Shown here: piece by piece, positions 32,014 to 63,201 of the stretch
How positions within the stretch are numbered: the first letter of the stretch is position 1
How the letters are laid out: every line of letters begins with the position of its first letter
DNA from: Flavobacterium aquiphilum
GTDB lineage: Bacteria; Bacteroidota; Bacteroidia; Flavobacteriales; Flavobacteriaceae
Assembly: GCF_027111335.1 (NCBI RefSeq)
Contig: NZ_CP114288.1
Coordinates: forward strand, 2,480,001 to 2,544,000
DNA length: 64,000 bases
Direction of reading: 5' to 3'
Translations under genes and position numbers: made by a program
Notes under the pieces: model-generated
Databases searched by the model: none
Seen by the model: only the letters and a program-made list of their open reading frames with translations
Told to the model about the DNA's origin: nothing

Positions 32014-32076
32014 TAATATAGTCTTAGTTTCTGATAATATAAACATTTTCGTTAGTTCTAGTTTAACATAATTTTA
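32014..32076 (+). promoter_or_regulatory. AraC-type operator plus -7 box upstream of susC (site A)
   Basis: TAATATAGTCTT at 32,014-32,025, second half-site TAATATAAACAT at 32,035-32,046 (21-bp offset), and a -7-like box TAATTTTA at 32,069-32,076 (34 bp after the second half-site). The spacing is identical to that of sites B (39,520) and C (46,201). It would place the transcript start about 60 bases before the chosen susC start codon. Confidence 0.75.
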
Positions 32077-32142
32077 CAAGTGTAAAAATAACACTAACCA
32101 AAATATTGAACTATGAGACTAACTAATCATTGCTCTGGAATT

Positions 32143-35100
32143 ATGAAAAATCTTTTTTTTAGAAAAAAGGTTTTCCATACGTTTTTCTTTCTATTTGTGT
32201 TTTGTATTTCGTTTGCCCAACATAAAATAAAGGGAATAATCAAAGATAATAATAATGTGCCGATATCCGGAGTGACAGTCTTGGAAAAAGAAACCAGTAA
32301 TTCTGTAGTAACCGATTTCGATGGAAATTATGAAATTACAACCAAAGGAGGGAATCCTACTTTAATTTTTTCCTTTATGGGGTTTGTGACCAAGGAAGTA
32401 AAAGTGGATGGAAGAGGGACTATTAATTTGTCACTTCAATCGATGGTAAACGATTTGTCGGAAGTTGTGGTAGTAGGATACGGAACTCAAAAGAAAGCCA
32501 GGGTTACCAGTGCTATTGCCAGTATAAAGGAAAAGGATTTTACCAAAGGAGCAACTAGAGATGCTTCCGATCTTATTAGAGGTAAAGTGGCAGGTCTAAC
32601 CATTAGTAATGGTTCAGGGGATCCATCTGCAGAACCTACCATTTTATTGCGAGGCATATCTTCTTTGAAAGGCTCAAATGCTCCCTTGGTTTTAATTAAT
32701 GGCGTACCAGGAGGCATAAATACTGTTTCTCCCAACGATATTGCTTCCATAGATGTGTTAAAAGATGCATCGGCAGCTGCAATTTATGGGACTAGAGGTG
32801 CTAATGGAGTAATTCTCATTACCACAAAAACAGTTAACAAAGAAATGGCTCCAACTCTGACGTACTCTACTTATGCCTCGATATCTAATTTTTACAATAA
32901 GGCAGACTTTTTGAATGCGGGTCAATATAGAAACCTGCTTTCCCAAGGTACAAAATTGCCTTTTACAGATGGAGGCACCTCTACAGACTGGCTGGATGAA
33001 ATATCGGGAAGCGGATTCACTCAAAGCCATAATCTTGATATAAAAGGAGGGACTGGAAGAACAAATTATGCGGTGAATCTTAATTATATGGATCAAGGTG
33101 GTATCTTTAACGGGACATCTAATAAGGAATATAGATTTTCATTTGATGTAAACCATAAAATGTTCAATGATAAATTAAAAATTAATCTGAACCTTCTTAA
33201 TGGAACACAAAAAATGGGTATTTCTGAAGGCACTGCAGGATATGCCTACAGACAAGCTATGATAAGAAATCCTACTGCTCCGGTATATAATGCAGATGGG
33301 ACTTATAATGAAGATATAAACAAGTTTCAATATTATAATCCTGTTGCAATAATGAATGAAACAAAGGAGGATAGAGATAATACCTGGCAAAGATTTACGG
33401 CTAATTTAACTCTTGATTTACTGCCTGGCTGGGATGCAGGGTTAATGCTTGCCAAGAATAAAAATTCAGCTTTGAACGGCTATTCAGAAACCAAAAAACA
33501 TTATTCTAATACATTAAACGGAAGAAATGGTGTTGCTTCAAGAAACACTGGTGATACAGATAGAGATTTTCTGGAATTTACTTCCAAATACAACAAAAAA
33601 ATTGCTAAGCATGAATTTACGGTATTAGGGGGCTACAGTTATCAGTATACCGTTAATCAGGGATTTTCAGCCTATAATTTTGATTTTCCTACGGATGCTT
33701 TTTCCTATAATAACTTAGGGGCTGGTAATGCCTTATCTGACGGAAAAGCTTCAATGGGCAGTTATAAAAATGATGATAAGCTGATAGGATTCTTTGGTAG
33801 AGCCAACTATAATTTTGACAGTAAATATGATTTTTTGTTCAGTATTAGAAGAGAGGGCTCATCTAAGTTTGGAGAAAATCATAAATGGGGTAATTTCCCG
33901 GCAGTCTCTGCTGGATGGAGTATGCACAAAGAGTCATTCCTTAAAGATGCTTCCTATGTAAATAATTTAAAATTAAGAGCAGGTTACGGTATTACAGGTG
34001 TAATTCCCGGAGCTTCATATATGTCTCAAACACTGTACAATTATAATGGCTATTTTTTTAATGATGGAAAATGGGTGAAGGGGTTAGTTCCAGCAAGTAA
34101 TCCTAATCCTGATCTGCGCTGGGAAAAAACAGCTGAGGTAAATATTGGTGTTGATTTTGGATTTTTAGAAAATAGAATCAGCGGAAGTGTTGATTTTTAC
34201 AGTAAAAAAACAAGTGATATGCTTTGGGATTATAATGTGCCAACTCCTCCATATTTGTATTCTAGCATTACTGCCAATGTTGGAAAAATGGAAAATAAGG
34301 GATTTGAAATTCTTCTTAATACAGTCCCTGTTAAAAGCAAAAACTTTATATGGAACTCTTCAATGACTTTTTCACATAATGAGAACAAGCTGACAAGCCT
34401 TTCTAATGATTTATACGCAATAGATAAAAACTTTATTAATACAGGAAATACTGGAGATCCAATTTCATTTTCAACTCACAGATTAGAAGTAGGACAGTCA
34501 ATAGGTAATTTCTGGGGATTAAAATCAGTAGATATTACAACTGACGGAAAATGGATCATTGAAACAGCAGACGGTACCAGAAAAACACTAACTCCTGCTT
34601 TATATAATGATGAAAATAAACAATACTTAGGAAATGGTATTCCAAAATATTATGCCGGCTGGACCAATACTTTTACTTATAAAAACTTTGATTTGAGCAT
34701 GGTGCTGACAGGAGCATTTGATTTTAAAATACTGAATTCTCAGCGCATGTTCTATGAGAATCCTACTATTAGTTACAATATGTTATCTTCTGCATTTGAC
34801 AAAGTATATGATAAAGCAGTATTGAACTATAACCAGACTTATGTTAGCTATTATCTTGAAAAAGGAGATTACGTAAAGGTTGATAACATTACGCTGTCTT
34901 ATAATTTCGATGTTAAACCATTCAAGATTATAAACGCAATGAGATTGTATATGTCAGGAAATAATTTAGCCACATTTACAAAATACAAAGGCTTGGATCC
35001 AGAAATAAAAAGAGAAGATCCTTTGTCACAAGGAATGGATAATAGAGATAAATATCCATCTACAACATCTTTTACTTTAGGATTAAATGTAACTTTTTAA
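32143..35100 (+). CDS. SusC/RagA-family TonB-dependent outer-membrane transporter
   Basis: About 985 residues from ATG 32,143, which gives a clean signal peptide ending FCISFAQ; an in-frame ATG at 32,113 would add ten unhelpful residues. A carboxypeptidase-regulatory-like domain (KIKGIIKDNNNVPISGVTVL, DFDGNYEITTK) leads into the plug (VVVGYGTQKKARVTSAI, IDVLKDASAAAIYGTRGANG) and a 22-strand barrel with SusC-type ends (LRWEKTAEVNIGVDFGFLEN, NVTF). It imports large oligomers across the outer membrane with the SusD-like lipoprotein encoded 12 bases downstream. The ligand is inferred from the locus: glycosylated Hyp/Pro-rich peptides or arabino-oligosaccharides. Site A upstream suggests AraC control. 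Confidence 0.95.
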   Translation: MKNLFFRKKVFHTFFFLFVFCISFAQHKIKGIIKDNNNVPISGVTVLEKETSNSVVTDFDGNYEITTKGGNPTLIFSFMGFVTKEVKVDGRGTINLSLQSMVNDLSEVVVVGYGTQKKARVTSAIASIKEKDFTKGATRDASDLIRGKVAGLTISNGSGDPSAEPTILLRGISSLKGSNAPLVLINGVPGGINTVSPNDIASIDVLKDASAAAIYGTRGANGVILITTKTVNKEMAPTLTYSTYASISNFYNKADFLNAGQYRNLLSQGTKLPFTDGGTSTDWLDEISGSGFTQSHNLDIKGGTGRTNYAVNLNYMDQGGIFNGTSNKEYRFSFDVNHKMFNDKLKINLNLLNGTQKMGISEGTAGYAYRQAMIRNPTAPVYNADGTYNEDINKFQYYNPVAIMNETKEDRDNTWQRFTANLTLDLLPGWDAGLMLAKNKNSALNGYSETKKHYSNTLNGRNGVASRNTGDTDRDFLEFTSKYNKKIAKHEFTVLGGYSYQYTVNQGFSAYNFDFPTDAFSYNNLGAGNALSDGKASMGSYKNDDKLIGFFGRANYNFDSKYDFLFSIRREGSSKFGENHKWGNFPAVSAGWSMHKESFLKDASYVNNLKLRAGYGITGVIPGASYMSQTLYNYNGYFFNDGKWVKGLVPASNPNPDLRWEKTAEVNIGVDFGFLENRISGSVDFYSKKTSDMLWDYNVPTPPYLYSSITANVGKMENKGFEILLNTVPVKSKNFIWNSSMTFSHNENKLTSLSNDLYAIDKNFINTGNTGDPISFSTHRLEVGQSIGNFWGLKSVDITTDGKWIIETADGTRKTLTPALYNDENKQYLGNGIPKYYAGWTNTFTYKNFDLSMVLTGAFDFKILNSQRMFYENPTISYNMLSSAFDKVYDKAVLNYNQTYVSYYLEKGDYVKVDNITLSYNFDVKPFKIINAMRLYMSGNNLATFTKYKGLDPEIKREDPLSQGMDNRDKYPSTTSFTLGLNVTF

Positions 35101-35112
35101 AAAAAAATTAAG

Positions 35113-36714
35113 ATGAAAAATCGTAATATAGTATCTAAAATCCTTGTTTCAAGCTTACTTCTTTTAGGAACAGGATGTACAAATTTGGATGAGACAGTCT
35201 ATGATACAATAACTGCTGAGAGTACCAAACTTACAGCTGAAGATTTAACGAGTATTATTGCGCCGGCATATACTTCATTCAGGGATATTTTTTGGGGCTG
35301 GGATGCTGCATTCTGTCTGTATGAAGAATCATCGGATCTGATTGTAACACCACAAAGGAACGGTATTGGCTGGGGAGATTATTATATAACAATGCATCAG
35401 CATACATGGGGATCTACACTGCCTCATGCTGAGGGTAATTGGTACTATCTATATACCGGTGTAAATAGTGTAAACAGAGCTATTTATCAAATTGAACAGA
35501 TTGATGGTATTGAAAATAAAGAAAAAGTTATTCAGGAACTAAAGGCCTTAAGAGCTATTTATTACTATTTGCTTTTGGATAATTTTAGAAATGTTCCAAT
35601 TGTAACTTCTTATGTTAATCCTCCAGGATATCTGCCTGTTCAGAATACAGGGAAAGAAGTATATGATTTCGTTGAAAAGGAATTAAAAACTGCGTTGCCT
35701 TTTTTAAGTGATCAAAATAATACTGAAACATATGGCAAGGTTACAAAATGGGCTGTCAAAATGACTTTGGCAAAATTATATCTCAACGCTGGAGTGTATT
35801 TAGGAACACCTAAATGGAACGAAGCTTTAGCTGAGGTTAATGATATTATAAGCAGCGGTAAGTTTAGTATGACCAGTAACTATTTGGATAACTTCAAAAT
35901 TAAAAATGAAGGTTCTTCAGAAGAAATATTGTCTATTCCTTTTGATCAGATTAAAACAGGCGGAAGTTATTGGCCATATAAAACTTTGGCAGCTCAAAGC
36001 CAGGCAACTTATGAATTGAGCGGAGGGCCTTGGAATGGTTCGGGAGGTATTCCTCAATTTATAGATACTTACGACCCAGATGATCAAAGATTAAAAGATT
36101 CCTGGCTGGGAGGCAAACAGTTTACCAGTAAAGGAGAGCCAATAATGGTAAACGGTAAACAATTTGAATATATTAATTATTTGACTAATGTAAATGGATG
36201 CGAGCCTAACGAAGGATTCAGAATGGTTAAATATGAGATTGGAACTGGCGATATAGGGCAGACAAGTAATGATGTCCCATTCTACAGATATACGGATGCT
36301 TTGATGATCAAAGCGGAATGTTTACTAAGAACGGGTGATGCAAATGGAGCTGCTGTCATCGTTTCTCAGGTTAGACAACGTGATTTTAAAAATACCAATC
36401 CTGCTAAAGCAACAGTTACAGGAGCAAAACTTTTAGGGGGAAGTGTTTATAAATACGGAACATATGAGGCTGGAGTAATCACGAAATATGAAGGCGGAGC
36501 TGATATCCAATATGGCGGTTTCCTGGATGAACTGGCATGGGAATTTATTGGTGAAGCTCATAGAAAACAAGACTTAATACGATTTGGAGTGTATTCTACA
36601 AAATCTTGGTTTTCTAAGGAAAAAAATCCTGGTGCAGCTTTTAGAGCTATTCTTCCAATACCACAGTCGGAAATAGATAAAAACAGTAATTTAAAACAAA
36701 ACCCAGGATACTAA
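35113..36714 (+). CDS. SusD/RagB-family nutrient-binding outer-membrane lipoprotein
   Basis: A 533-residue lipoprotein (lipobox LLGTGC, mature Cys at 22) with SusD landmarks: EGNWYYLYTGVNSVNRAIYQ, ALRAIYYYLLLDNFRNVPIVT, VTKWAVKMTLAKLYLNAGVY, YRYTDALMIKAECLLRTGD, and WEFIGEAHRKQDLIRFG near the end. It caps the SusC transporter and binds substrate at the cell surface. A terminator lies 115 bases after its stop, so susC-susD probably form their own transcript. Confidence 0.95.
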   Translation: MKNRNIVSKILVSSLLLLGTGCTNLDETVYDTITAESTKLTAEDLTSIIAPAYTSFRDIFWGWDAAFCLYEESSDLIVTPQRNGIGWGDYYITMHQHTWGSTLPHAEGNWYYLYTGVNSVNRAIYQIEQIDGIENKEKVIQELKALRAIYYYLLLDNFRNVPIVTSYVNPPGYLPVQNTGKEVYDFVEKELKTALPFLSDQNNTETYGKVTKWAVKMTLAKLYLNAGVYLGTPKWNEALAEVNDIISSGKFSMTSNYLDNFKIKNEGSSEEILSIPFDQIKTGGSYWPYKTLAAQSQATYELSGGPWNGSGGIPQFIDTYDPDDQRLKDSWLGGKQFTSKGEPIMVNGKQFEYINYLTNVNGCEPNEGFRMVKYEIGTGDIGQTSNDVPFYRYTDALMIKAECLLRTGDANGAAVIVSQVRQRDFKNTNPAKATVTGAKLLGGSVYKYGTYEAGVITKYEGGADIQYGGFLDELAWEFIGEAHRKQDLIRFGVYSTKSWFSKEKNPGAAFRAILPIPQSEIDKNSNLKQNPGY

Positions 36715-36829
36715 TCAGAACGACTTATTGATTGTTTTTTTTAGACTGCCATAAAACGGTTTTAAATGAGTTTTAATCTTAAAAAAAGTATGAAAATTTT
36801 ACAAGCTGGTTACTTGTAAGTGTATGGAC

Positions 36830-36866
36830 AGCCATTCCTGTAGTATTGGGGATGGCTTTCTTTTTT
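36830..36866 (+). terminator. Terminator after susC-susD
   Basis: agccattcc at 36,830-36,838 pairs with gggatggct at 36,849-36,857 (one wobble), followed by ttcttttttt. Confidence 0.7.
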
Positions 36867-36886
36867 TAGAATTTTAAAAAAAATAT

Positions 36887-36955: not shown

Positions 36956-38542
36956 ATGATGAAGAAATTAGAATTTAGATGTAGTTTTTTTGCATGTCTG
37001 CTGGCATTTTTATTCTTCGGTGTAAGTAAGGCGGAGACAGTTTCAGTAAAGCCAATTAAATTGAATTATACTGTTTCAATGGAAGCTCCAGAGTTACATT
37101 ATCTGGATATTCGTTTGGAATGCGAAGGACTGAGAGATACTCAAACCAGTTTTATGCTTCCAGTTTGGTCGCCGGGTTATTACATGATTTTGGACACGCC
37201 AAGACATATCGTAGACTTTGATGTAATGGATAGCAGCGGAAATAAATTATTTTGGCATAAAAAATCCAAAAACAACTGGGTTGTCGATAACGGTAAGCAA
37301 AGAAAGATTATAATCACGTATCGTTTTTTTGCCAATCGAAAATCGGTTGCAGAATCTTATATTGATAGTGAAAAAGCTTTCATCATGCCTAACAATGTTT
37401 TCATGCACATCGAAAATCAGATTAATAATCCTGTGCAGGTAACTTTTGAGCCGTATAAAAAATGGACTAAAATTTCAACTGGATTGAACAGGGTAAAAGA
37501 AGGAACAAACACTTTTTCAGCCAATAATTTTGACACATTGTATGACAGTCCGGTTTATCTGGGCAATCAGTTGACTATTGATTTTAAACATGAAGGAAAG
37601 TCATATTCTTTGGGAATTGCCACTCCCGAAGGACTCAATCAAGGGAAATTTATTGCAGACCTCAAAAAGATCATGAGTGCTACAACGGCTATTATGAAAA
37701 AAGTGCCTTATGACCATTATAGTTACATCATGATGGAAGCCGGTGGCGGAGGTCTGGAACATTGGAATTCCCAAGCCATATTTACCAATGGCACTTTTGA
37801 TTTTAAATCAATTGAAGCGTATACGGATTTTTTGAATTTTGTAACCCATGAATATTTTCATCTTTACAATGTAAAAGCAATCCGCCCGATAGAATTAGGA
37901 CCATTTGATTATAACAAAGAAAATTACACGTCGATGTTATGGGTTTCTGAAGGTTTTACTGTTTATTATGAATACATCATCATGATGAGAGCCGGCCTGC
38001 TTGAAAGCAAAGAGGCCTATAAATACATCACTGAATCCATAAAGAGGTATGAAAATATTGACGGAAGCAGGCATATGTCTTTGTCCCGCTCCAGCTTTGA
38101 TATCTGGCTCAATTTTTTCAATAATGAAGGCAATGCTAAGCAGACAACCATATCGTATTACAACAAAGGACCGGTAATTGCGCTTTTATTGGATTTGGAA
38201 ATCAGAAATAATACCCATAACAAAAAATCTTTGGATGATGTAATGCGTTTTTTGTACAACGAATTTTATGAAAAAAAGGGAAGGGGTTTTACTGAAGCTG
38301 AATTTTGGCAGGTTTCTGAACAGACTGCCGGAAAACCTCTGGACGAAATAAAAACGTATGTAAATACCGTAAAGGCAGTTGATTATCAGAAATATTTAAA
38401 GTATGCAGGACTTCAGATAGATTTAAGTCCGATGAAATCTGTCACTGAAAATGATACTTTGATTGAAAGAAGTTTTGAAATAAAAGAATTATCAGAAACT
38501 TCGCCATTGCAGATGGAAATCAGAAAGTCAATTTTTAAATAA
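36956..38542 (+). CDS. Exported M61-family (glycyl aminopeptidase-like) metallopeptidase
   Basis: A 528-residue protein with a signal peptide (residues about 1-24), the M61 N-terminal beta domain (LNYTVSMEAPELHYLDIRLE, LPVWSPGYYMILDTPRHI), and a thermolysin-like core. The core has the zinc motif H298-E-Y-F-H302 and the downstream Glu in WVSEGFTVYYE; GGGGLEHWNS precedes it as usual. The family normally ends with a PDZ domain, and only a short C-terminal stretch is present here, so the PDZ appears reduced. M61 enzymes trim N-terminal Gly/Ala and other residues from peptides, which fits peptide processing in the periplasm. Confidence 0.9.
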   Translation: MMKKLEFRCSFFACLLAFLFFGVSKAETVSVKPIKLNYTVSMEAPELHYLDIRLECEGLRDTQTSFMLPVWSPGYYMILDTPRHIVDFDVMDSSGNKLFWHKKSKNNWVVDNGKQRKIIITYRFFANRKSVAESYIDSEKAFIMPNNVFMHIENQINNPVQVTFEPYKKWTKISTGLNRVKEGTNTFSANNFDTLYDSPVYLGNQLTIDFKHEGKSYSLGIATPEGLNQGKFIADLKKIMSATTAIMKKVPYDHYSYIMMEAGGGGLEHWNSQAIFTNGTFDFKSIEAYTDFLNFVTHEYFHLYNVKAIRPIELGPFDYNKENYTSMLWVSEGFTVYYEYIIMMRAGLLESKEAYKYITESIKRYENIDGSRHMSLSRSSFDIWLNFFNNEGNAKQTTISYYNKGPVIALLLDLEIRNNTHNKKSLDDVMRFLYNEFYEKKGRGFTEAEFWQVSEQTAGKPLDEIKTYVNTVKAVDYQKYLKYAGLQIDLSPMKSVTENDTLIERSFEIKELSETSPLQMEIRKSIFK

Positions 38543-38616: not shown

Positions 38617-39459
38617 TTAAAACTGCCCGCGATATTGCGAAGGCGAAATCCCTTTTAATTCTTTAAATTTTCTGTTGAAATTAGCAATATCCTGAAATCC
38701 GCAGAGTTCCGATATGGAGGCAATCGAAAGATCTTTTTTATTATGTAGCAGCTTACATGCATTTTCAATTCTGATTTCAATCAAAAACTGAAAAAATGTT
38801 TTGTTGGTACGCTTTTTAAAGTACCTGCAAAAAGCATTCTTACTCATATTGGCTTTTTCTGCCGCTTCTTCTAAAGTGATATTTTGATGGAAAGACTCTA
38901 TGGCATATTCAAAAACAGCACTCATGCGCCTTCCTTCATCGTCAGTATATTTCTTTTTATAGATGAATGAAGAAAGAGGCGTTTTTTTTGAGTTAATAAT
39001 GATGTTGATGATTTTTAAAAAGGTAGCAATACGCTGAATTTTATTTTGCTTTTTTAATTTATCAAAATGATGGATAATTTTGTTTTGATTGGACAAAATT
39101 TTAATTCCATGCTCTGAATCTTTAAAAAACTCATCAACGCTGCTCAAGTCATTAAGACTGAAAAAGTCTTTCCCGAAAGAAGTCTTTGTGAAAAACAACG
39201 TATACATTATCGATTCCGAAGAGGTTTCGGTATCACTTCTAAAAACATGAGGTATGTTCTCACCAATCACTAAAATATCTTTTTCTTTATAATCGTTTAT
39301 CGAATCTCCGACGATCAAGGTACCGCATCCCTTTACGATATAACTGATTTGTATTTCTTCGTGCTGGTGAAGGTGGTTGTAAAAAACATGTTCAATATCC
39401 TCTTGATAAATAAGTGCTTCTCTTTCTGTTTTTGGTATTTTAAAAGGTAGAATTTTCAA
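38617..39459 (-). CDS. AraC-family regulator of the hydroxyproline/glycoprotein locus
   Basis: A 280-residue protein with an N-terminal cupin sensing domain (FYNHLHQHEEIQISYIVKGCG, GDSINDYKEKDILVIGENIPH) and a C-terminal double HTH domain (ITLEEAAEKANMSKNAFCRYFKK, LSIASISELCGFQDIANFNRKFKEL, GISPSQYRGQF). It is transcribed away from the DapA-like gene, and the shared 224-base gap contains operator B. Three copies of a two-half-site operator with 21-bp spacing precede the three main transcripts. Such spacing is typical of AraC-type activators, so this is the probable local activator, with hydroxyproline or a derived sugar as possible inducer (inference). A decayed copy of its 3' end lies at 63,248. 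Confidence 0.93.
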   Translation of the reverse strand: MKILPFKIPKTEREALIYQEDIEHVFYNHLHQHEEIQISYIVKGCGTLIVGDSINDYKEKDILVIGENIPHVFRSDTETSSESIMYTLFFTKTSFGKDFFSLNDLSSVDEFFKDSEHGIKILSNQNKIIHHFDKLKKQNKIQRIATFLKIINIIINSKKTPLSSFIYKKKYTDDEGRRMSAVFEYAIESFHQNITLEEAAEKANMSKNAFCRYFKKRTNKTFFQFLIEIRIENACKLLHNKKDLSIASISELCGFQDIANFNRKFKELKGISPSQYRGQF

Positions 39460-39683: not shown

Positions 39684-40598
39684 ATGGAAATAAAATGGGA
39701 AGGCGTAATGCCAGCTGTAACGACAAAGTTTACAGAAGAGGGTCAATTGGATCTTCTAATGTTCGAAAAGAATATCAAGGCACAAATCGATGCCGGTGTT
39801 AGTGGAATTATACTCGGAGGAACACTCGGAGAGGCAAGTACATTAACCAAAGAGGAAAAGGAAGTTTTAATCAATGTCTCTTTGAAAATAGCGGAAGGAA
39901 AGATTCCCGTTATCGTAAATATTGCCGAACAGGCAACAAGTGAGGCCGTTGCTTTAGCGAAACGTGCTGAGGAATTAGGTGTCAATGGATTGATGCTGTT
40001 GCCTCCAATGAGGTATAAAGCAACGGATCATGAAACAGTAGTTTATTTCAAAGAAATTGCCCAAAGTACCTCACTGCCGATTATGATTTATAATAATCCA
40101 ATAGATTATAAAATCGAGGTTACTTTAGAGATGTTTGATGAGTTGGTAAAACTTGAAAATATTCAGGCAGTGAAAGAATCAACAAGAGATATCAGTAATG
40201 TAACACGTATCAAAAACCGTTTTGGAGACCGATTGAAAGTGCTTTGCGGGGTAGATACCCTGGCCCTTGAAAGTTTGGTTACCGGAGGAGACGGTTGGGT
40301 AGCAGGTCTGGTCGTAGCATATCCAGCTGAAACGGTAGCTATTTATAAATTGGTCAAAGCCGGAAGAATAGATGAAGCTGTAGCCATTTACAGATGGTTT
40401 ATGCCCCTGCTAGAATTGGATATTTCACCACAGCTTGTGCAAAATATTAAATTGGCAGAAGTAGCTACAGGTCTTGGGACTGAAAATGTACGTCTGCCAA
40501 GACTACCGTTGCAGGGAGTTGAAAGGGAGCGCGTTTTGTCCATTATTGATGTTGCAATGAAAAGCAGACCTATTTTGCCTGACTATAAAAATATATAA
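39684..40598 (+). CDS. DapA-family deaminase/aldolase, probable pyrroline-4-hydroxy-2-carboxylate deaminase
   Basis: A 304-residue TIM barrel of the dihydrodipicolinate synthase superfamily: substrate loop GGTLGEAS, MIYNNPIDYKIEV with the catalytic Tyr region, and Schiff-base K164 in AVKEST. In bacterial trans-4-hydroxy-L-proline catabolism such an enzyme converts pyrroline-4-hydroxy-2-carboxylate to 2-oxoglutarate semialdehyde and ammonia. The very next genes encode the semialdehyde dehydrogenase, 4-hydroxyproline epimerase and a DadA-like dehydrogenase, which makes this role far more likely than lysine synthesis. First gene of the operon, behind operator B. Confidence 0.88.
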   Translation: MEIKWEGVMPAVTTKFTEEGQLDLLMFEKNIKAQIDAGVSGIILGGTLGEASTLTKEEKEVLINVSLKIAEGKIPVIVNIAEQATSEAVALAKRAEELGVNGLMLLPPMRYKATDHETVVYFKEIAQSTSLPIMIYNNPIDYKIEVTLEMFDELVKLENIQAVKESTRDISNVTRIKNRFGDRLKVLCGVDTLALESLVTGGDGWVAGLVVAYPAETVAIYKLVKAGRIDEAVAIYRWFMPLLELDISPQLVQNIKLAEVATGLGTENVRLPRLPLQGVERERVLSIIDVAMKSRPILPDYKNI

Positions 40599-42191: not shown

Positions 42192-43202
42192 ATGCCAAGA
42201 AAAACATTTTTTTGTGTAGATGCGCATACTTGCGGTAATCCAGTAAGAGTAGTTGCCGGCGGAGGCCCAAATCTTGTTGGAAACAACATGAGCGAAAAAA
42301 GGCAACACTTTTTAAAAGAATACGATTGGATCCGTAAAGGATTGATGTTTGAACCCAGAGGTCATGACATGATGAGCGGCAGTATTCTGTATCCGCCCAG
42401 TGATCCGGAAAATGATTTTGGAATTTTATTTATCGAGACTTCAGGCTGTCTGCCCATGTGTGGCCACGGAACCATCGGAACAATAACCATTGCCGTCGAA
42501 GAAGGATTGATTACACCAAAAATTCCAGGAAAAATAAAGATGGAAGCTCCTGCCGGTCTGGTTCAGATTGAATACCAGCAAACCGGGAAAAAGGTAGATT
42601 GGGTACGTTTGACAAATGTAAAATCCTATTTGGCAGCCGAAGGTCTTACGGTTGATTGTCCGGAATTGGGTGAGATTGTCTTTGATGTGGCTTATGGTGG
42701 AAATTATTACGCCATTGTGGATCCGCAAAAGAATTTTTCAGGCATTCAGGATTTTACGGCTGGAAAAATTGTGCAGTACAGTCAGGAAGTGAGAAAACGG
42801 ATCAATGAAAAATATCCAAATCTTTTTATTCATCCGGAAAATGACACGATTCGTGACGTAAGCCATATGCTGTGGACAGGAGACCCGATAGACCCTGCGT
42901 CATCTGGCAGAAATGCTGTTTTTTATGGAGATAAAGCCATAGATCGTTCTCCTTGCGGTACAGGAACTTCGGCTAGAATAGCACAACTTCATGCTAAAGG
43001 AAAATTGAAAAAGGGAGAAGATTATGTTCATGAAAGTTTTATCGGAAGCAAATTTATCGGAAGGGTTGAAGAAGAAACATCCATAGGAGATATTAGTGCT
43101 ATTGTACCAAGCATTCAAGGCTGGGCAAAAGTATATGGTTACAATACGATTATTATCGATGAAGATGATGATCCGTATGCTTTTGGTTTTCAGGTAATTT
43201 AA
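42192..43202 (+). CDS. 4-Hydroxyproline 2-epimerase (proline racemase family)
   Basis: A 336-residue protein with both catalytic cysteines of the racemase/epimerase branch: C90 in PMCGHGTIG and C255 in SPCGTGTSAR. Trans-3-hydroxyproline dehydratases have Thr or Ser in place of a Cys, so they are excluded. The N-terminus (VDAHTCGNPVRVV) and DPASSGRNAVFYGD are usual. It turns trans-4-hydroxy-L-proline into cis-4-hydroxy-D-proline. Proline racemase activity cannot be ruled out by sequence alone, but the neighbours encode the rest of the hydroxyproline pathway. Confidence 0.93.
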   Translation: MPRKTFFCVDAHTCGNPVRVVAGGGPNLVGNNMSEKRQHFLKEYDWIRKGLMFEPRGHDMMSGSILYPPSDPENDFGILFIETSGCLPMCGHGTIGTITIAVEEGLITPKIPGKIKMEAPAGLVQIEYQQTGKKVDWVRLTNVKSYLAAEGLTVDCPELGEIVFDVAYGGNYYAIVDPQKNFSGIQDFTAGKIVQYSQEVRKRINEKYPNLFIHPENDTIRDVSHMLWTGDPIDPASSGRNAVFYGDKAIDRSPCGTGTSARIAQLHAKGKLKKGEDYVHESFIGSKFIGRVEEETSIGDISAIVPSIQGWAKVYGYNTIIIDEDDDPYAFGFQVI

Positions 43203-56120: not shown

Positions 56121-56126
56121 CATTTG

Positions 56127-58271
56127 ATGCTAAAAAAGAAACTAATATACAGCCTTATTGCATTTGCTTTTACGGGAATAATTTTCGCCCAAAAGGACAT
56201 TGAAATAAATACCCCTGGAGCGAAAAATCCGATTTTACCAGGCTGGTTTGCCGATCCTACCATTAAAAAGTTTGGTGATATTTATTATATCTATGCCACT
56301 ACAGATAATGAAATGCTGGCATCTGGGGCTCCCACAGTCTGGTACAGCAAAGACTTTAAAAATTGGTATAATTATGTAATGGAGATTCCTTCTTTTTCGG
56401 CAAAAGCGATTACTAATTTTTGGGCTCCCGACATAATTGAAGGGGAGGACGGTAAATATTATCTGTATTTTGGAAACTGTGAAATAGGCTGTAATATTTA
56501 TGGATATGTTTCAGATACACCTGTAGGGCCTTGGAAGAAATTAAGTGAAAATGACACACCCGTGATTTCAAATGGATTTCCAAGAGAAGGTTTCCCTTCA
56601 TTGGATGCACAGTTTTTTAAAGACACTGACGGCAAAATATACGGATATTGGGGAACCTGGGTGCATTACAACGGCGGATATGCTGTGGGGGAATTAAATA
56701 AAAAGACAATGGGTGACATGATGCATTCAGTCAATATACCATTGGAACAGACGCCGGCTCCTTTTGAAGCGGCTTATATGATGAAGAAAGGTTCGAAATA
56801 CATTTTGATGTATTCCGGCGCGTCCTGTCATGACGAAACCTACAATGTGCGGTATTCTTATTCGGATTCACCCTATGGGCCTTTTACTCCCGGAAAAAAC
56901 AATCCGATTCTTAGCACCAATGAAGATAAAACGGTGCATGGTCCTGGACATCATTCGGTTTTGAGGGAGAATGATGATTACCACATCGTGTATCATAAGC
57001 ACGATTACCCAATGACAAGAGGCGGGCTTGCGAGACAGGTCTGCATTGATAAAATGATTTTTGAAAATGATTCGACTATAAAAAAAGTGGTGCCATCGAG
57101 TAAGGGAATAGGTGATTTGTTGAAATCTGATGTCCCTGATGATATCGCTTTTATGGCAAAAACAACAGCTTCGTCATTTTATCATTTGAAATCGCTTCAG
57201 TATGATTATGAGTACAAACCTTCATTTGCCACTGATGATAACAATGCAACGATGTGGAAAGCGGCTGATAATACCACTCCTCAGCATCTGACCATCGATT
57301 TGGGTACAGCCCAAAAAATAAAAAGGATAATGACCCAATTTGAATTTGCCAGTTATTATTATCAATACAAACTGGAGTACTCTGCAGATGGAAACAAATG
57401 GAATATGTATGCTGATAAATCCAAAAACCATACAGCCGGAAGCCCAATGATTGATGATAATGACGTTACGGCACGTTATCTAAAGCTGACGGTTTTAGCC
57501 ACAGAAAAAACCGGACTTTATGCTGCTGTTTGGAACATTAAAGCATACAGTTCATTGTTTGAGATTCCGCTGCAGCTGAAAAACAGAAAATCAGACAAAG
57601 ATGCTGCGGTAAAAAGCTCAAAGAAATTATTGGTTGATCTTGATGCCAATAGAATTCAAGGAAATTCAATCGTTACCAGCATTGAAAACAAAGGGGCAAT
57701 CGGAGGGATTTTCACTAAAAGCGGAGAGGTTTCTTTGGAAAAAAAAGACGGAATTAAGGTTTTTAATTTTGTAAACGGAGCTTTGACTTTGGATAAATCA
57801 GTACCTAAAAGTCTGGCTTGGAATGGTTCTTATACCGTGGCGGTCTGGGTTAAAAATCCCGTAGTGTCAAATGAAGGGGAAATTTTGGCATCCTGGTGCG
57901 ACAGAAGGGAATTCGGTTTGGCAAATTCATACAACGCTTTGGCTTACAACAGCGGAAATTATGGTGCAGGAGTGCATTTGGATGGGCATTTTGATATGAG
58001 GTATAATAAAGTCCCGCAGGCTGATAAATGGCATCATATTGTTTTGACTTTCGATGGTGTTGTGGAGAACGTTTATGTGGATGGTGTTTTGGACAATTCG
58101 CAAAACATGCTTTTGTCATCAGCCATTGATAAAGCAAAAATCATAATTGGGGCATCAGATATCGGCGAAAATTTCTCTGGCTTTTTGGCTTCATTACGTA
58201 TGTATGATTATGCCCTTAATCAGGGAGATGTAATGAACCTCATGAAGAAAACGAAGCCTCAGATCAAATAA
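56127..58271 (+). CDS. GH43-type glycosidase with discoidin-like and LamG-like domains
   Basis: About 714 residues from ATG 56,127; a TTG three bases earlier is less likely. After the signal peptide (about 1-21) comes a five-bladed GH43 propeller with the catalytic base D43 in GWFADPTIKK, the pKa-modulating Asp in FPSLDAQFFKD and the acid Glu in PAPFEAAYMM. This is followed by an F5/8-type (CBM32-like) domain (about 355-475, DLGTAQKIKRIMTQFEF) and a C-terminal LamG-like domain (about 495-705). GH43 members are arabinofuranosidases, xylosidases or galactosidases; here arabinose or galactose side chains are likely. Six bases separate it from the DUF5695 gene. Confidence 0.9.
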   Translation: MLKKKLIYSLIAFAFTGIIFAQKDIEINTPGAKNPILPGWFADPTIKKFGDIYYIYATTDNEMLASGAPTVWYSKDFKNWYNYVMEIPSFSAKAITNFWAPDIIEGEDGKYYLYFGNCEIGCNIYGYVSDTPVGPWKKLSENDTPVISNGFPREGFPSLDAQFFKDTDGKIYGYWGTWVHYNGGYAVGELNKKTMGDMMHSVNIPLEQTPAPFEAAYMMKKGSKYILMYSGASCHDETYNVRYSYSDSPYGPFTPGKNNPILSTNEDKTVHGPGHHSVLRENDDYHIVYHKHDYPMTRGGLARQVCIDKMIFENDSTIKKVVPSSKGIGDLLKSDVPDDIAFMAKTTASSFYHLKSLQYDYEYKPSFATDDNNATMWKAADNTTPQHLTIDLGTAQKIKRIMTQFEFASYYYQYKLEYSADGNKWNMYADKSKNHTAGSPMIDDNDVTARYLKLTVLATEKTGLYAAVWNIKAYSSLFEIPLQLKNRKSDKDAAVKSSKKLLVDLDANRIQGNSIVTSIENKGAIGGIFTKSGEVSLEKKDGIKVFNFVNGALTLDKSVPKSLAWNGSYTVAVWVKNPVVSNEGEILASWCDRREFGLANSYNALAYNSGNYGAGVHLDGHFDMRYNKVPQADKWHHIVLTFDGVVENVYVDGVLDNSQNMLLSSAIDKAKIIIGASDIGENFSGFLASLRMYDYALNQGDVMNLMKKTKPQIK

Positions 58272-58327
58272 ATTATAACCAAACCATTAATCTGTTCCTG
58301 TATTAATAACTTTTTAATTTAAAAAAA

Positions 58328-59539
58328 ATGACAATAGGTGTAGGAGGTTCATCAGTGGCAATTGAATTGAAAAAAATAGAAAACAGAATTCACAATGTGA
58401 AGTCTATTCAGCTGAATGAATATTTGGAACGGATTCAAAAAGCGGTGCGGTTAATGAAAGAGCATTCTGTGAAGGTTCTTTATCTAAACGCGGGAACCAA
58501 TCTGTATTATTTTACCGGAACTCTTTGGAATGCTTCGGAGAGAATGGTGGGCGTGCTGTTGTTTGAGGATGGCTCTTTGGAATATATAGTTCCAAAATTT
58601 GAAGAAGGGACTTTCAAAAAATACATGAAAGTTCAATCGACAATTAATTGCTGGGAAGAGCATGAATCTCCTTATTTATTGATTGGTAAATTATTGGAAG
58701 ATAAAAATATTAGTGACGGCTCAATTGCCATTGATGAGTCGTCACCTTATTTTTTGGCTGATGGAATTTCAAAAGCAAATAGATCATTTGATTTTATTAA
58801 TGCCCAGCCAATTACTGCAGGCTGCAGAATGCATAAATCCAAAAATGAGATTGCAATAATTCAAAAAGCAAAAGACATTACAATGGAGGTGCAAAAAGCT
58901 GCCGCCAGGATATTAAGACCCGGAATCACCGTTGACGAAGTTGTGGATTTTATTAATAAAGCACACATTAAAGCGGGAATAGCTTCCGGTTCTTATTTTT
59001 GTATTGTTTTGTTTGGTGATGATACCCAATATCCTCATGGGGTTTCAGTTCCCCAGCCGTTAAAAGAAAATGAAGCTGTTATCATTGATACTGGCTGTAA
59101 ACTCAAAGGATATCTTTCTGATATTACAAGATCTTATGTCTATGGTGAAGCTTCTGAAGAATATAAAACCTTTTGGAACTTGGAAAAGAAAACACAGCAG
59201 TCCGCTTTTGAAGCAGCACAGATTGGCTCTTCCTGCGGATCGGTAGATGATGCTGCCCGAAAAACATTGGCTGAGGCAGGGTTAAGTCCTGACTATGATT
59301 TACCTGGATTGCCGCATAGAGTGGGTCACGGAACCGGACTTGATATTCATGAGTTTCCTTATCTCGTTCGAGGAAGTGAAATAAAACTGCTTGAAGGAAT
59401 GGTGGTAAGCAATGAACCGATGATATGTGTTCCCGGAAAATTTGGAATCCGGCATGAAGACCATTTTTACATGACTGAAAGGGAACCTAAGTGGTTTACC
59501 ACTCCCATGCAGAGTGTTGATAATCCTTTTGGGTATTAA
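58328..59539 (+). CDS. M24-family Xaa-Pro peptidase (prolidase/aminopeptidase P-like)
   Basis: A 403-residue protein without signal peptide, so cytoplasmic. The N-terminal creatinase-like domain is followed by a pita-bread core with metal ligands in AVIIDTGCKLKGYLSDITRS (two Asp), GHGTGLDIHEFPY (His), VSNEPMICVPG (Glu) and RHEDHFY (Glu). Such enzymes split Xaa-Pro bonds. In this locus it would release free Pro or Hyp from imported dipeptides, directly supplying the hydroxyproline pathway. Spacing of 56-57 bases to both neighbours keeps it within the operon. Confidence 0.92.
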   Translation: MTIGVGGSSVAIELKKIENRIHNVKSIQLNEYLERIQKAVRLMKEHSVKVLYLNAGTNLYYFTGTLWNASERMVGVLLFEDGSLEYIVPKFEEGTFKKYMKVQSTINCWEEHESPYLLIGKLLEDKNISDGSIAIDESSPYFLADGISKANRSFDFINAQPITAGCRMHKSKNEIAIIQKAKDITMEVQKAAARILRPGITVDEVVDFINKAHIKAGIASGSYFCIVLFGDDTQYPHGVSVPQPLKENEAVIIDTGCKLKGYLSDITRSYVYGEASEEYKTFWNLEKKTQQSAFEAAQIGSSCGSVDDAARKTLAEAGLSPDYDLPGLPHRVGHGTGLDIHEFPYLVRGSEIKLLEGMVVSNEPMICVPGKFGIRHEDHFYMTEREPKWFTTPMQSVDNPFGY

Positions 59540-59596
59540 TTGGTTTCTAATTTTATAAAGAACATTAACTCACTTTAGTTAATAAAACTAGCGATT

Positions 59597-60937
59597 ATGC
59601 AGCAAAATAAAACGCTGATAGAAATTTTAACTTGCTTACTTTGCTTTGCATTTTTTGTCGGTTTTCCTAAAGAAATGAAGGAGAAAGAATTATATCTTCC
59701 TAAAAAAGTCTGGATGATTCCTGATGATAATGATTATAAAAATCCAAAGAGTGATTATAATTTTGAGCACATGGTTACTTCAGAAAACATTGCGATTTTT
59801 TGGCATAAAGATTATGGGAAGAACCCAATGTCCAATCCCGAAGAATCGGAGCGTTTCAATCCTGAAAGAATGCTGAGTGAATGTGAAAGGATATACGATA
59901 TCTATGTCAATCAGCTAAAACTTGTGGAATCAGGTAATTCATTTGTAAATAAATACAAGATTTTGGTGTATGTGTTCAAAGGTGAGGAAAAGACGGCTTT
60001 TGGTGGAGGAGAGGAAGATAAAGTCGGAATTTTTTGGACACCTGCGGTTCGTGTGCATAAAGAACCTTATGGCGTTTTGGCGCATGAATTGGGACACAGT
60101 TTTCAGTATTTAAGCCACGCCGATACCGGAAAAGGCACCGATGGAGTTATTCAGGAAATGTCTGCACAATATATGCTCTGGCAGGTATATCCTGACTGGA
60201 TGACTTTTGAAAATTATCATTTGGCTGATTATTTAAAAGGAACTCATTATGGATTTCTGCATCCTTATAATATGTATCATTCTCCTTATGTAATTGAATA
60301 TTGGTCAGAGAAACGGGGAAAAGACTTTTTCGGAAAACTGATGCGGAATACCCAGGAAGGAGAAGATCCCGTATTGACATACAAACGCTTGAATGCACTC
60401 ACACAAGAACAGTTTAATGATGAAATATTTGATGCCAGCCGAAAATTTATAACTTGGGATTTGAAAAGAATTGATTCTGTTGCCAGACAATATGCCAATA
60501 AGCATTACACCAAAGTTGATAAAATGCAAAATGGCTGGTATAAGATTGATTCAATCAATTGTCCTCAAAACTATGGCTACAATGGAATTAAGCTGAATGT
60601 TCCGCAATTTGGAACTAAAATAAAATTGAATTTTCAGGGAATTGCCGGAGCAGATGGATTTTCAAAAGTGAAAGCTGATAAAGCGGGCTGGCGTTATGGT
60701 TTTGTGGCTCAATTAAAAAATGGAGACCGGGTGTATAGTGAAACTTTCAAAAAGAGTGCTGGTAAAGCTTCTTTCACAGTTCCAAAAAATGCTGAATATT
60801 TATGGCTGGTGGTTTCCGGTGCTCCTGCTGAACATTGGCCTCGGCCTAACCGATGGGGCGAGAATCCAGACAAAACACCCGATGAGCAATGGCCTTATCA
60901 GTTTCAGTTATTTGGTACGGTTCCTGAGATTAATTAG
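59597..60937 (+). CDS. Exported DUF6055-like protein with HELGH zinc-peptidase motif
   Basis: A 446-residue protein with a hydrophobic N-terminal signal (about residues 8-22). The gluzincin-like motif is H163-E-L-G-H167 in GVLAHELGHSFQYL, followed by GVIQEMSAQYMLWQ with a possible third ligand Glu. The C-terminal third looks like a beta-sandwich (KIKLNFQGIAG, FTVPKNAEYLWLVVSGAP). I relate it to DUF6055 from memory; no activity is established to my knowledge. The position between M24 and GH36 genes suggests a peptidase on the same glycoprotein. Confidence 0.82.
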   Translation: MQQNKTLIEILTCLLCFAFFVGFPKEMKEKELYLPKKVWMIPDDNDYKNPKSDYNFEHMVTSENIAIFWHKDYGKNPMSNPEESERFNPERMLSECERIYDIYVNQLKLVESGNSFVNKYKILVYVFKGEEKTAFGGGEEDKVGIFWTPAVRVHKEPYGVLAHELGHSFQYLSHADTGKGTDGVIQEMSAQYMLWQVYPDWMTFENYHLADYLKGTHYGFLHPYNMYHSPYVIEYWSEKRGKDFFGKLMRNTQEGEDPVLTYKRLNALTQEQFNDEIFDASRKFITWDLKRIDSVARQYANKHYTKVDKMQNGWYKIDSINCPQNYGYNGIKLNVPQFGTKIKLNFQGIAGADGFSKVKADKAGWRYGFVAQLKNGDRVYSETFKKSAGKASFTVPKNAEYLWLVVSGAPAEHWPRPNRWGENPDKTPDEQWPYQFQLFGTVPEIN

Positions 60938-60996
60938 AAGGAAAGCCGTTTAGTGTTTATCCAAAAAAATACAGATCTATTTTAAAAATATAAAAG

Positions 60997-63201
60997 ATGA
61001 AGCAATTATTATTCTCACTGTTAACTCTGTTGTGTTTCTCAATTCAGGCGCAAGAAATGATTCGCATTGAAACGGAAAGTTCAGCTCTTGTTTTAAAAGT
61101 AGGTAAGAACAAAAAGCTTTATCAGACTTATTTTGGAACTAAGCTCAATAACAGTTCAGAGTATGAATTCATTTCGAAAGAAAACACCAAGAAATTTGTC
61201 ATAAACGACGGCAATCCTTTAATCGATCTGCGTCATCTGGCTTACCCTGCTTTTGGCACAGATAATTTATTTGAACCCGCCATCCGGATAACGCACAACG
61301 ACGGAAATCCTTCATCGGAATTGGAATATCAAAATCACAATTCTTCAAAAATAGATGCCAATACAACGGAAACTGTCATTCGCTTAAAAGACCCTCAGTA
61401 TCCAGTATTTGTTGATCTTCACTATAAAGTTTTTTACAAGGAAAATGTAATCGAATCGTGGACAGAAATTCAGCATCAGGAAAAAAAGCCGGTGATGCTT
61501 TATAATTATGCTTCCTCAGCTTTGCATTTGGATGCCGATAAATACTGGCTGACCCAATTTTATAGTGATGTTGTCGAAGAGATGCGAATGGAAGAAAGTC
61601 AGCTTACCAGAGGAAGTAAAGTCATTGATTCAAAATTGGGAGTGCGGACCAATATGTTTGCTTCACCCAATTTTTTTCTTTCGCTTAATTCAAAGTCAAG
61701 TGAAAATACTGGCGAAGTTATTGCAGGGACTATAGCTTGGTCGGGTAACTTTAAGCATGCATTTGAGATTGATAATAATAATGAATTGCGAATCATCTCA
61801 GGCATCAATGAATTTGCTTCCGAATACAATTTGGAACCCAAAGAAATATTTAAAACACCAGCTTTTATTTATACGTTTTCCAATAATGGAAAAGGGCAGG
61901 CCAGCAGAAATCTGCACAATTGGGCAAGAAAATATGGTCTGAAAGACGGTGAAAAACCACGTCTTACTTTGCTGAATAATTGGGAGACAACTTTTTTTGA
62001 CTTTGATCAGACTAAATTGGCTAATATGTTTATCGATGCCAAAACATTGGGAGTCGATATGTTTTTACTCGATGACGGCTGGTTTGGGAACAAATACCCA
62101 AGAAGCGGTTCGACTTCGGGTTTGGGAGATTGGCAGGCGACTAAAGCAAAACTTCCCGATGGGATTGGTTTTCTATTGGAACAGGCTAAAAAAACAGATG
62201 TGAAATTTGGTATTTGGATTGAACCAGAAATGATTAATGAAAAAACCGAATTGTATGAAAAGCACCCTGACTGGGTATTGAGTCTTCCAAATAGGGAAAA
62301 GAGTCTTTATAGAACACAATTGGTTCTTGATTTATGTAATCAAAAAGTGCAGGATTTTGTGTTTAAGGTGGTCGATGACATTATGCAGACACAGTCGGGT
62401 GTGGCTTTCTTTAAATGGGACTGCAATCGAATGATGACCAGTGCGTATTCCACTTATTTAAAGAACCGGCAATCCCATTTGTTTATTGACTACACCAAGG
62501 GATTGTACAAAGTTTTGGACCGGATAAAGTCGAAATACCCGGATCTGCCAATGATGCTTTGCGCCGGAGGAGGAGGCAGGTCGGATTATGGAATGCTGAA
62601 TTATTTCACCGAGTTTTGGGCCAGTGATAACACCGATCCTTTTGACCGTATTTTTATCCAATGGGGATATTCCAATTTTTATCCGGCATTGGCCGTTTGC
62701 AATCACGTTACTTCTATGGGGAATCAATCCATAAAGTTTAGAACCGATGTGGCCATGATGGGAAAATTAGGGTTTGATATTCATGTTGGAGGGCTCAAGG
62801 AAGAGGAGCTGAAATATGCTCAGGAGGCAGTTGCCAATTACAAACGCTTAAGTCCGGTAATCTGGCAAGGCGATTTGTACCGATTGGTTTCCCCTAATGA
62901 GGACAGCAGGGCAGTATTGATGTATGTAAATGAAAATAAAACGAAATCGGTACTTTTTTCATATACCCTGCATCCATTGACAGATCCTAATTATGGTTTG
63001 GTTAGATTCGAAGGGCTTGATGCAAATAAGATGTATAAAGTAGAAGAAATCAATGTAATGCCAAAAGGGAAAAAGACTTTTGAAGAATCAGGAACTGTAT
63101 ATTCGGGTGACTTCCTGATGAAAATCGGATTGAAAGTTTCTTCTTCCCGTCAGGAAAACAGTGTAGTGCTGGAAATTACCGCTGTTGATCCTAAAGGATA
63201 A
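60997..63201 (+). CDS. GH36-family alpha-galactosidase
   Basis: A 734-residue exported enzyme (signal peptide about 1-18) with an N-terminal beta-supersandwich, a TIM barrel and a C-terminal beta domain. Catalytic features are complete: LLDDGWFGN, nucleophile D475 in FFKWDCNRMM and acid/base D544 in FWASDNTDPFDR; CAGGGGRSDYGML replaces the more common CASGGGRFD. It removes terminal alpha-galactose; in extensin that sugar is linked to Ser. Last gene of the operon behind operator C. I see no clear terminator after it. Confidence 0.92.
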   Translation: MKQLLFSLLTLLCFSIQAQEMIRIETESSALVLKVGKNKKLYQTYFGTKLNNSSEYEFISKENTKKFVINDGNPLIDLRHLAYPAFGTDNLFEPAIRITHNDGNPSSELEYQNHNSSKIDANTTETVIRLKDPQYPVFVDLHYKVFYKENVIESWTEIQHQEKKPVMLYNYASSALHLDADKYWLTQFYSDVVEEMRMEESQLTRGSKVIDSKLGVRTNMFASPNFFLSLNSKSSENTGEVIAGTIAWSGNFKHAFEIDNNNELRIISGINEFASEYNLEPKEIFKTPAFIYTFSNNGKGQASRNLHNWARKYGLKDGEKPRLTLLNNWETTFFDFDQTKLANMFIDAKTLGVDMFLLDDGWFGNKYPRSGSTSGLGDWQATKAKLPDGIGFLLEQAKKTDVKFGIWIEPEMINEKTELYEKHPDWVLSLPNREKSLYRTQLVLDLCNQKVQDFVFKVVDDIMQTQSGVAFFKWDCNRMMTSAYSTYLKNRQSHLFIDYTKGLYKVLDRIKSKYPDLPMMLCAGGGGRSDYGMLNYFTEFWASDNTDPFDRIFIQWGYSNFYPALAVCNHVTSMGNQSIKFRTDVAMMGKLGFDIHVGGLKEEELKYAQEAVANYKRLSPVIWQGDLYRLVSPNEDSRAVLMYVNENKTKSVLFSYTLHPLTDPNYGLVRFEGLDANKMYKVEEINVMPKGKKTFEESGTVYSGDFLMKIGLKVSSSRQENSVVLEITAVDPKG

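Follow-up and report, generated by a model that had tools for sequence, protein, structure and literature searches.

A conserved Flavobacterium locus with predicted functions in the use of hydroxyproline-rich, arabinosylated glycoproteins

Extensins and other hydroxyproline (Hyp)-rich glycoproteins are abundant, cross-linked wall components, and their use by bacteria as a whole, sugar and protein together, seems to be little described. We analysed a stretch of 64,000 nucleotides from the one-contig, 5.05-Mb genome of Flavobacterium aquiphilum (G000:C1:2480001-2544000, hereafter the window), in which 17 genes at positions 32113-63201 probably form a locus for the utilization of Hyp-rich, arabinosylated glycoproteins as a whole. 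This reading rests on gene content, protein families, intact catalytic motifs and conserved linkage; from these we infer the substrate, the order of the steps, their location in the cell and regulation by an AraC-type protein. Import, sugar removal, peptide cleavage and Hyp catabolism had been proposed to be joined in this one locus by an earlier examination of the DNA (the original prediction), and conservation across genera supports this proposal well. Among the titles and abstracts searched in open-licence literature, none described a SusCD locus in which Hyp catabolism and peptidases are combined.

The locus opens with the genes for SusC, SusD and an M61-type peptidase, followed by a regulator gene on the minus strand and then by 13 genes on the plus strand (Table 1). 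SusC and SusD, 12 bases apart, are the adjacent pair by which a SusCD-type polysaccharide utilization locus (PUL) is recognised, and carbohydrate-active enzymes (CAZymes) and a regulator are linked to them. The 13 co-directional genes (39684-63201) are separated by gaps of 3-190 bases, a spacing compatible with a single operon or a few. Pfam and NCBIfam matches confirmed that the SusCD importer, the glycoside hydrolases (GH) GH36 and GH43 and the amino-acid permease are present and intact where they had been predicted, and the five peptidase-like proteins of the same prediction (S9, M24, M61, DUF885 and a HELGH-motif protein, which is DUF6055) were found intact as well. The claim of a complete trans-4-Hyp pathway also held: the epimerase (HypE), for which the genome has a single match and therefore one copy, lies above its curated cut-off, while the dehydrogenase, the deaminase and the alpha-ketoglutaric semialdehyde dehydrogenase are present by family (PF01266, PF00701 and PF00171) and adjacent. 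None of these three passes an NCBIfam equivalog cut-off, and their roles are assigned from family and position; the top NCBIfam model for the aldehyde dehydrogenase, 2,5-dioxovalerate dehydrogenase, was matched under its cut-off. GH36 retains the motifs KWD473 and SDNTD543, which we take to hold the catalytic Asp residues. The nearest solved chain to GH43 is 5msx (138 bits), named as a putative endo-1,4-beta-xylanase. Signal peptides were recognised by eye at the N-termini of SusD, M61, S9, GH146, DUF885, DUF5695, GH43 and GH36, and none was seen by eye at that of M24.

A mechanism can be proposed in which SusC and SusD would carry Hyp-rich arabinosylated glycopeptides over the outer membrane. 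Exo-acting enzymes in the periplasm would then deglycosylate them: GH43 would strip alpha-arabinose, GH146 would remove beta-L-arabinofuranose, including the last, Hyp-linked one, GH36 would take off alpha-galactose, and DUF5695, which resembles polysaccharide lyase family PL27, might act on one further sugar. The deglycosylated peptide would be cleaved by secreted DUF6055, S9, DUF885 and M61, the permease would import amino acids or short peptides, and the presumably cytoplasmic M24 would cleave Xaa-Pro/Hyp peptides. Finally, epimerase, dehydrogenase, deaminase and semialdehyde dehydrogenase would convert trans-4-Hyp to alpha-ketoglutarate, and L-arabinose would be handled by a module that lies elsewhere in the genome.

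Table 1. Genes of the locus, with window positions and the matches behind each assignment
Gene product	Position	Strand	Evidence
SusC-type TonB-dependent outer-membrane importer	32113..35100	+	TIGR04056 745 bits (cut-off 368); Pfam Plug and barrel
SusD-type surface lipoprotein	35113..36714	+	PF07980 84 bits, PF14322 61 bits; post-signal Cys by eye
M61 glycyl-aminopeptidase-like protein	36956..38542	+	PF05299 133 bits, PF17899 158 bits; HEYFH; signal peptide by eye
AraC-type regulator, divergent from Hyp operon	38617..39459	-	PF12833 78 bits; AraC_binding/cupin
Dihydrodipicolinate synthase (DHDPS) family, probable pyrroline-4-hydroxy-2-carboxylate deaminase	39684..40598	+	PF00701 211 bits; function from context
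Aldehyde dehydrogenase, probable alpha-ketoglutaric semialdehyde dehydrogenase	40620..42188	+	PF00171 183 bits
4-hydroxyproline 2-epimerase (HypE)	42192..43202	+	NF010578 593 bits (curated cut-off 376)
DAO family, probable cis-4-hydroxy-D-proline dehydrogenase	43275..44510	+	PF01266 227 bits; NF001933 274 bits, under cut-off 383
APC-family amino-acid permease	44701..46134	+	PF13520 177 bits
S9 dipeptidyl-peptidase-IV (DPP-IV)-like protein	46278..48533	+	PF00930 178 bits, PF00326 152 bits; GTSAG serine motif; bacterial DPP-IV 2d5l 182 bits
GH146-type beta-L-arabinofuranosidase, N-terminal LamG and Big_4	48586..51639	+	PF07944 243 bits
DUF885 putative metallopeptidase	51675..53366	+	PF05960 143 bits; HELLPGH
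DUF5695, PL27-like putative glycan lyase or hydrolase	53430..56120	+	Two domains: beta-sandwich and alpha/alpha barrel
GH43 with F5/8-type C and LamG, probable alpha-L-arabinofuranosidase	56124..58271	+	PF04616 140 bits
M24 Xaa-Pro peptidase, probably cytoplasmic	58328..59539	+	PF00557 168 bits, PF01321 63 bits
DUF6055 gluzincin-type metallopeptidase, distant Svx relative	59597..60937	+	HELGH-X19-E
GH36 alpha-galactosidase, secreted	60997..63201	+	PF02065 332 bits; AgaB 4fnq 356 bits; signal peptide by eye

Conservation of the gene block

The original prediction had named a lack of conservation of this gene grouping elsewhere as one of its refutations, and the comparison made here did not refute it. 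Of 558 relatives of the epimerase in named genomes, the best 80 were taken, and the loci around them are therefore a near-kin sample. The 17 locus proteins were compared by tblastn with these 80 loci in stretches of at most 21 kb, with GH146 counted at an identity of at least 60%. The loci fell into two groups, 19 with GH146 and 61 without it in the stretch. S9 was present in 17/19 of the former and 2/61 of the latter, DUF885 in 14/19 and 0/61, and an AraC homologue of at least 60% identity in 18/19 and 4/61. By these sequence matches, the GH-bearing loci have an AraC and an S9 variant of their own; where they have the AraC homologue, it is 65-88% identical to that of the window. The 61 include two loci (L038 and L040) whose GH146 (73%) sits about 20 kb upstream of the epimerase, beyond the first stretch, and many of them carry plain Hyp genes. 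Three such loci without GH146 in Flavobacterium each come with a separate SusC, which in L012 is paired with SusD-like_2 and accompanied by M24/AMP_N, while L029 and L031 have S9 (25-26%) and SusC (32-34%). These three are possibly loci for Hyp peptides of the collagen type.

The counts in the 80 loci are too low for DUF5695, GH43 and GH36, since the stretches end before these genes. Seventeen GH146-type loci, namely 16 of the 19 (not L018, L053 and L067) and L022, whose GH146 had been cut by the first stretch, were extended by up to 20 kb. DUF5695 was present in all 17 extended loci and in 22 of 23 genomes, the exception being the genome of L067. GH43 was found in 13/17, and at its place after GH42 both L022 and L028 have an unused frame with masked letters; GH36 occurred in nine of the 10 Flavobacterium loci and in none of the other seven. 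Ten named Flavobacterium loci retain the block running from AraC through the Hyp genes, S9, GH146 and DUF885 to DUF5695; seven loci of Allomuricauda/Flagellimonas/Muricauda, Tamlana and Confluentibacter have it with some genes gained and others lost. Because the surrounding genes in Flavobacterium mostly differ (exceptions are a downstream flank that L022 and L025 have in common and a second DUF6055 protein, mentioned below), the block from AraC to DUF5695 is regarded as a conserved unit. It constitutes a defined, testable gene set that could serve to trace such degraders in communities of soils, roots and algae. A protein resembling ornithine cyclodeaminase/mu-crystallin is joined to the block in L104 (14077-15054), with homologues in L022, L025, L070 and L109; judged from the one copy scanned, it is perhaps a cyclic ketimine reductase.

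A wider sample of 395 Bacteroidota genomes contained DUF5695 in 14 and the epimerase above its cut-off in 77. Ten of the 14 have the epimerase, and in eight (G000, G044, G225, G245, G366, G103, G161 and G284) it lies within 18 kb of DUF5695 on one contig. GH146 of at least 70% identity was present in 12 genomes, 10 of them with the epimerase, which in six is within about 21 kb; in G161 and G276 a weaker GH146 match (39-41%) is close to the epimerase. When presence was compared by Fisher tests, P was 2.4e-5 for DUF5695 and epimerase, 2.3e-6 for GH146 and epimerase and 2.9e-15 for GH146 and DUF5695, taking as independent genomes that are in part related. In a second sample with one genome per genus of the window's family (n=120), DUF5695 occurred in seven genomes, all of which have the epimerase, in five cases within 17 kb; all seven have GH146 within 8 kb, and S9 and SusCD were in the stretch in six each. 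In G446 and G489 the epimerase is on a separate contig, yet an AraC homologue and SusCD adjoin GH146 and DUF5695. The grouping of the block exceeds chance.

Hyp genes are joined to GH146 or L-arabinose genes in other lineages too. In G276, from another family, a GH146-type gene (PF07944 420 bits) lies inside the Hyp operon, between the epimerase and DAO genes; its product (L138 14519-16876) also has a DUF6805 domain. In G284, from a third family, the Hyp genes, DUF885 and DUF5695 continue into an L-arabinose pathway stretch with a ribulokinase-like gene, aldolase II, a GH27 gene, the L-arabinose isomerase, an SSF symporter and an NrtR-type regulator. Hyp and L-arabinose catabolism are also contiguous in L056, L058, L059, L080 and L088 (Allomuricauda/Flagellimonas/Muricauda), where after the block come genes for an NrtR/AraR-type regulator, for GH51 and for an enzyme of the GH127 type that has the C-terminal domain of that family, then the arabinose pathway, an aldose epimerase and a symporter (L056 copies scanned). 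We presume the label GH51 here for proteins with the Pfam domains Alpha-L-AF_C/ASD1. The window's own genome has a separate L-arabinose module at about 212384-227200 of G000:C1 (L136 and L137), comprising an NrtR-type regulator, two GH51-type enzymes, a GH127-type and a GH97-like enzyme, a ribulokinase-like protein, aldolase II, the isomerase AraA and an epimerase. Gene by gene it is syntenic with the fused block of the Flagellimonas type at 59-83% identity, the GH97-like gene (26%) being extra. Judged by gene families, Hyp and L-arabinose, the expected products from Hyp-arabinosides, are served by one cluster in some lineages and by two in the window's genome.

The GH146-type enzyme, DUF5695 and DUF6055

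The protein encoded at 48586..51639 had been taken for a GH127 enzyme with an intact Cys/Zn site. The site is indeed intact (motifs ETC, residue 746, and TCC, residue 815), and its Glu-x-Cys and Cys-Cys align to the structures of BT0349 and Bll3HypBA1; published systems are cited here from excerpts of the papers, according to which these Glu and Cys residues are the Zn ligands of GH146 (PMC10850190). The family was wrong, however: HypBA1 scored 34 bits, against 220 bits for the GH146 chain 5opj (BT0349, the closest solved relative) and 140 bits for 8k7y (a bifidobacterial GH146), and the identity as GH127 was rejected in favour of GH146. In Xanthomonas euvesicatoria, XeHypAA (GH43) takes the alpha-1,3-linked arabinose off Ara4-Hyp, XeHypBA2 (GH121) releases arabinobiose and XeHypBA1 prefers Ara-Hyp, i.e. 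the last sugar (PMC6085000). XeHypBA1 is classed in GH146, and Bll4HypBA1 of the same family cleaves Araf-beta-Hyp, whereas the substrates of BT0349 derive from arabinan (PMC10850190). Membership of GH146 is thus compatible with action on Hyp-arabinosides without requiring it, and the locus enzyme may be of either type; since two characterised GH146 enzymes act on Araf-beta-Hyp, its type suits the glycoprotein idea no less than GH127 would. The HypAA/HypBA2/HypBA1 systems of Bifidobacterium longum and X. euvesicatoria (GH43, GH121 and GH127/GH146) resemble the locus in that GH43 and GH146/GH127 strip extensin-type Hyp arabinose; unlike the locus, they are described in those excerpts without peptidases, SusC/D import or Hyp catabolism. 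Catabolic operons for trans-4-Hyp (HypE, D-Hyp dehydrogenase, deaminase and alpha-ketoglutaric semialdehyde dehydrogenase) have their four functions in common with the locus, but plain ones are found in the family without these GHs, whereas the copy in the window is embedded in a glycan-degrading SusCD locus.

DUF5695, which the original prediction did not single out, is one of the most constant companions of the block. Its structure model is closest to PL27 and shares the two-domain fold of that family. Sequence searches of the PDB gave nothing at E <=1 with the protein and nothing at E <=10 with its profile, 5no8 (PL27) included, and membership of PL27 by sequence was rejected on this ground; a bridge protein of 905 amino acids (L109 4395-7112, minus strand) connects the two by sequence. 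DUF5695 is best described as a separate sequence family with a PL27-like fold and as a putative lyase or hydrolase. In the open-licence literature searched, its name was met in one paper, on fungal regulators. The modelled fold is common to the PL27 enzymes of Bacteroides PULs for arabinogalactan proteins (AGPs), BT0263 and BACCELL_00875. From these PULs, with which it presumably has the SusCD logic in common, the locus differs in the separate sequence family of DUF5695, in the lack of a galactanase in its Pfam tables and in having Hyp catabolism and peptidases.

In DUF6055, HELGH163-167 and E187 (HELGH-X19-E) are invariant in 47 aligned sequences and follow the gluzincin pattern HEXXH-X(8-28)-E. 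A search of PDB sequences with its profile gave nothing at E <=10. Svx of soft-rot bacteria, described in excerpt as predicted extensin glycopeptidases, has a similar gluzincin motif, HEXXH-X22-E; the match of DUF6055 to NF040510 is weak (51.5 bits, where the cut-off is 625), and membership of Svx/AvrXca was rejected. A second DUF6055 protein occurs outside the block in five Flavobacterium loci. The locus offers predicted roles for both of these uncharacterised families.

Substrate and alternative readings

As to the substrate, extensin-type chains, with short Hyp-arabinosides and Ser-linked alpha-galactose, are favoured by the assigned families. They are the best fit because these glycosidase families suit short chains and no galactanase family is among the Pfam matches of the 17 locus proteins. 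AGPs stay in play because of the PL27-like protein and of beta-galactosidases in relatives, and, as some carrier genera are presumably marine, algal Hyp-rich proteins may be a further substrate. The predicted dedication to extensin-like glycoproteins is accordingly supported in part, namely for the Hyp-rich, arabinosylated type; within it extensin is the favoured candidate beside AGPs and algal proteins. Three alpha-galactosidase families recur: GH36, GH97 and, in G284, GH27. The GH97 of L058 is of the retaining alpha-galactosidase type (3a24 475 bits against 139 for SusB) and has relatives in L038, L040, L059 and L109, and GH36 adjoins plain Hyp genes in L031, L032, L033, L035 and L036. According to the excerpts, Ser-linked alpha-galactose is borne by extensins, and gum arabic also bears alpha-Gal-(1->3)-Ara. 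Besides the two papers named above, the excerpts cited in this text come from PMC10815107, PMC9266454, PMC4454575, PMC8377490 and PMC8939339.

Several findings weigh against use of Hyp-rich arabinosylated glycoproteins as the function of the locus. The GH146 family includes enzymes of the arabinan type, and one of these, BT0349, is the closest solved relative; DUF5695 is PL27-like, while PL27 enzymes act, in the excerpts, on the AGP gum arabic; and GH42, GH35 or GH2 beta-galactosidases are present in related loci. Of the 80 epimerase loci, the 61 noted above carry no such GH146 within their stretches. The epimerase is far from DUF5695 in G141, on another contig in G158 and absent from G166, G242, G250 and G305; in G284, G323, G141 and G173 GH146 and the epimerase lie far apart or on different contigs, and G166 and G305 have GH146 without an epimerase. 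The disregard of kinship in the Fisher tests belongs here as well. A general linkage of Hyp and arabinose genes is unsupported: epimerase and isomerase occur together in 35 of the sampled genomes and lie within 20 kb of each other in one, G284, although pairs can be missed at contig breaks. That HypE and AraA tend to occur in the same genomes (P 2e-8; the AraA set, n=81, includes one match under the family cut-off) may simply reflect saprotrophic genomes.

Among the alternatives, an AGP as the main substrate fares best, though we consider it rather unlikely. The glycosidases would then trim side chains of type II arabinogalactan, with DUF5695 as a PL27-like lyase, GH43 and GH146 acting on arabinose and GH36 on terminal alpha-galactose, and the Hyp pathway would consume the AGP backbone. 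This would agree with the nearness of the DUF5695 model to PL27 and with the bridge protein, with the GH42 gene that lies between DUF5695 and the following block gene in 10 Flavobacterium loci (one representative scanned), and with GH35 and GH2 in G284. It would further agree with published activities, since the excerpts report that PL27 enzymes free rhamnose from gum arabic, that the GH146 enzyme Bll3HypBA1 is active on rice AGP and that gum arabic carries the alpha-galactose mentioned above. However, the Pfam matches of the 17 proteins include neither the galactanase families GH16 and GH30 nor GH39 or GH79, so that the locus alone would not open the arabinogalactan backbone, and the DUF5695 profile does not reach PL27. 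Also, GH43 starts with the ADP base motif, which we take to be usual in GH43 and absent from the GH43_24 galactanases.

Collagen is the best-known source of Hyp, and the locus might serve collagen, gelatin or Hyp peptides in general, with the glycosidases incidental. The loci without GH146 in Flavobacterium (L012, L029 and L031), with their peptidases and own SusC, would suit Hyp peptides. To our knowledge, however, collagen does not carry L-arabinofuranosyl-Hyp; three families of the sample have Hyp genes joined to GH146 or to L-arabinose genes, and the GH-bearing loci have their distinct AraC and S9 variant. This explanation is very unlikely. Least probable of all is a chance neighbourhood of an independent pectin/arabinan PUL and a Hyp operon: some genomes do have GH146 and DUF5695 with no epimerase close by, and SusCD, AraC, GH146 and DUF5695 stand apart from it in G446 and G489, but the linkage repeats over several genera and families, uniform placement would give 8/10 genomes within 18 kb with P ~5e-16 and 3/5 genera with 4e-6 (kinship ignored), and in G276 GH146 lies inside the Hyp operon itself.

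Returning to whole Hyp-rich arabinosylated glycoproteins as the probable substrate, it is tempting to speculate further. The locus may belong to a class of "glycoprotein utilization loci" in several Bacteroidota families, for which Hyp-O-arabinosylated protein would be one nutrient, DUF5695 being a new CAZyme family of a PL27 superfamily and DUF6055 a dedicated glycopeptidase family, with algal substrates in marine lineages; we put this forward tentatively, as somewhat less likely than its opposite. If true, such loci would span glycopeptide import, sugar removal to bare Hyp, proteolysis and the catabolism of Hyp and, in some lineages, of L-arabinose.

Surroundings of the locus

Downstream, the locus is followed by a Crp-like open reading frame and sugar-nucleotide genes, named from their translations. 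Upstream it adjoins a MobC fragment (30919-31560, minus strand), the C-terminal 207 residues of a Bacteroides-type coupling protein; it covers model positions 449-655 of 655 and reads as the remnant of a conjugative element. At 28633-30267 on the minus strand are an AlkB-like 2OG-Fe(II) oxygenase and a DsbA-like protein of the thioredoxin fold. An RND-type efflux operon (13986-19842, plus strand) encodes an HlyD-like adaptor, an AcrB-family pump and an outer-membrane factor. The window begins with an open frame of 2508 amino acids (2-10444, plus strand) that contains five stretches of DUF7507 and a type IX secretion signal of the CHU_C kind and is followed by PorP/SprF and then by an OmpA-domain protein.

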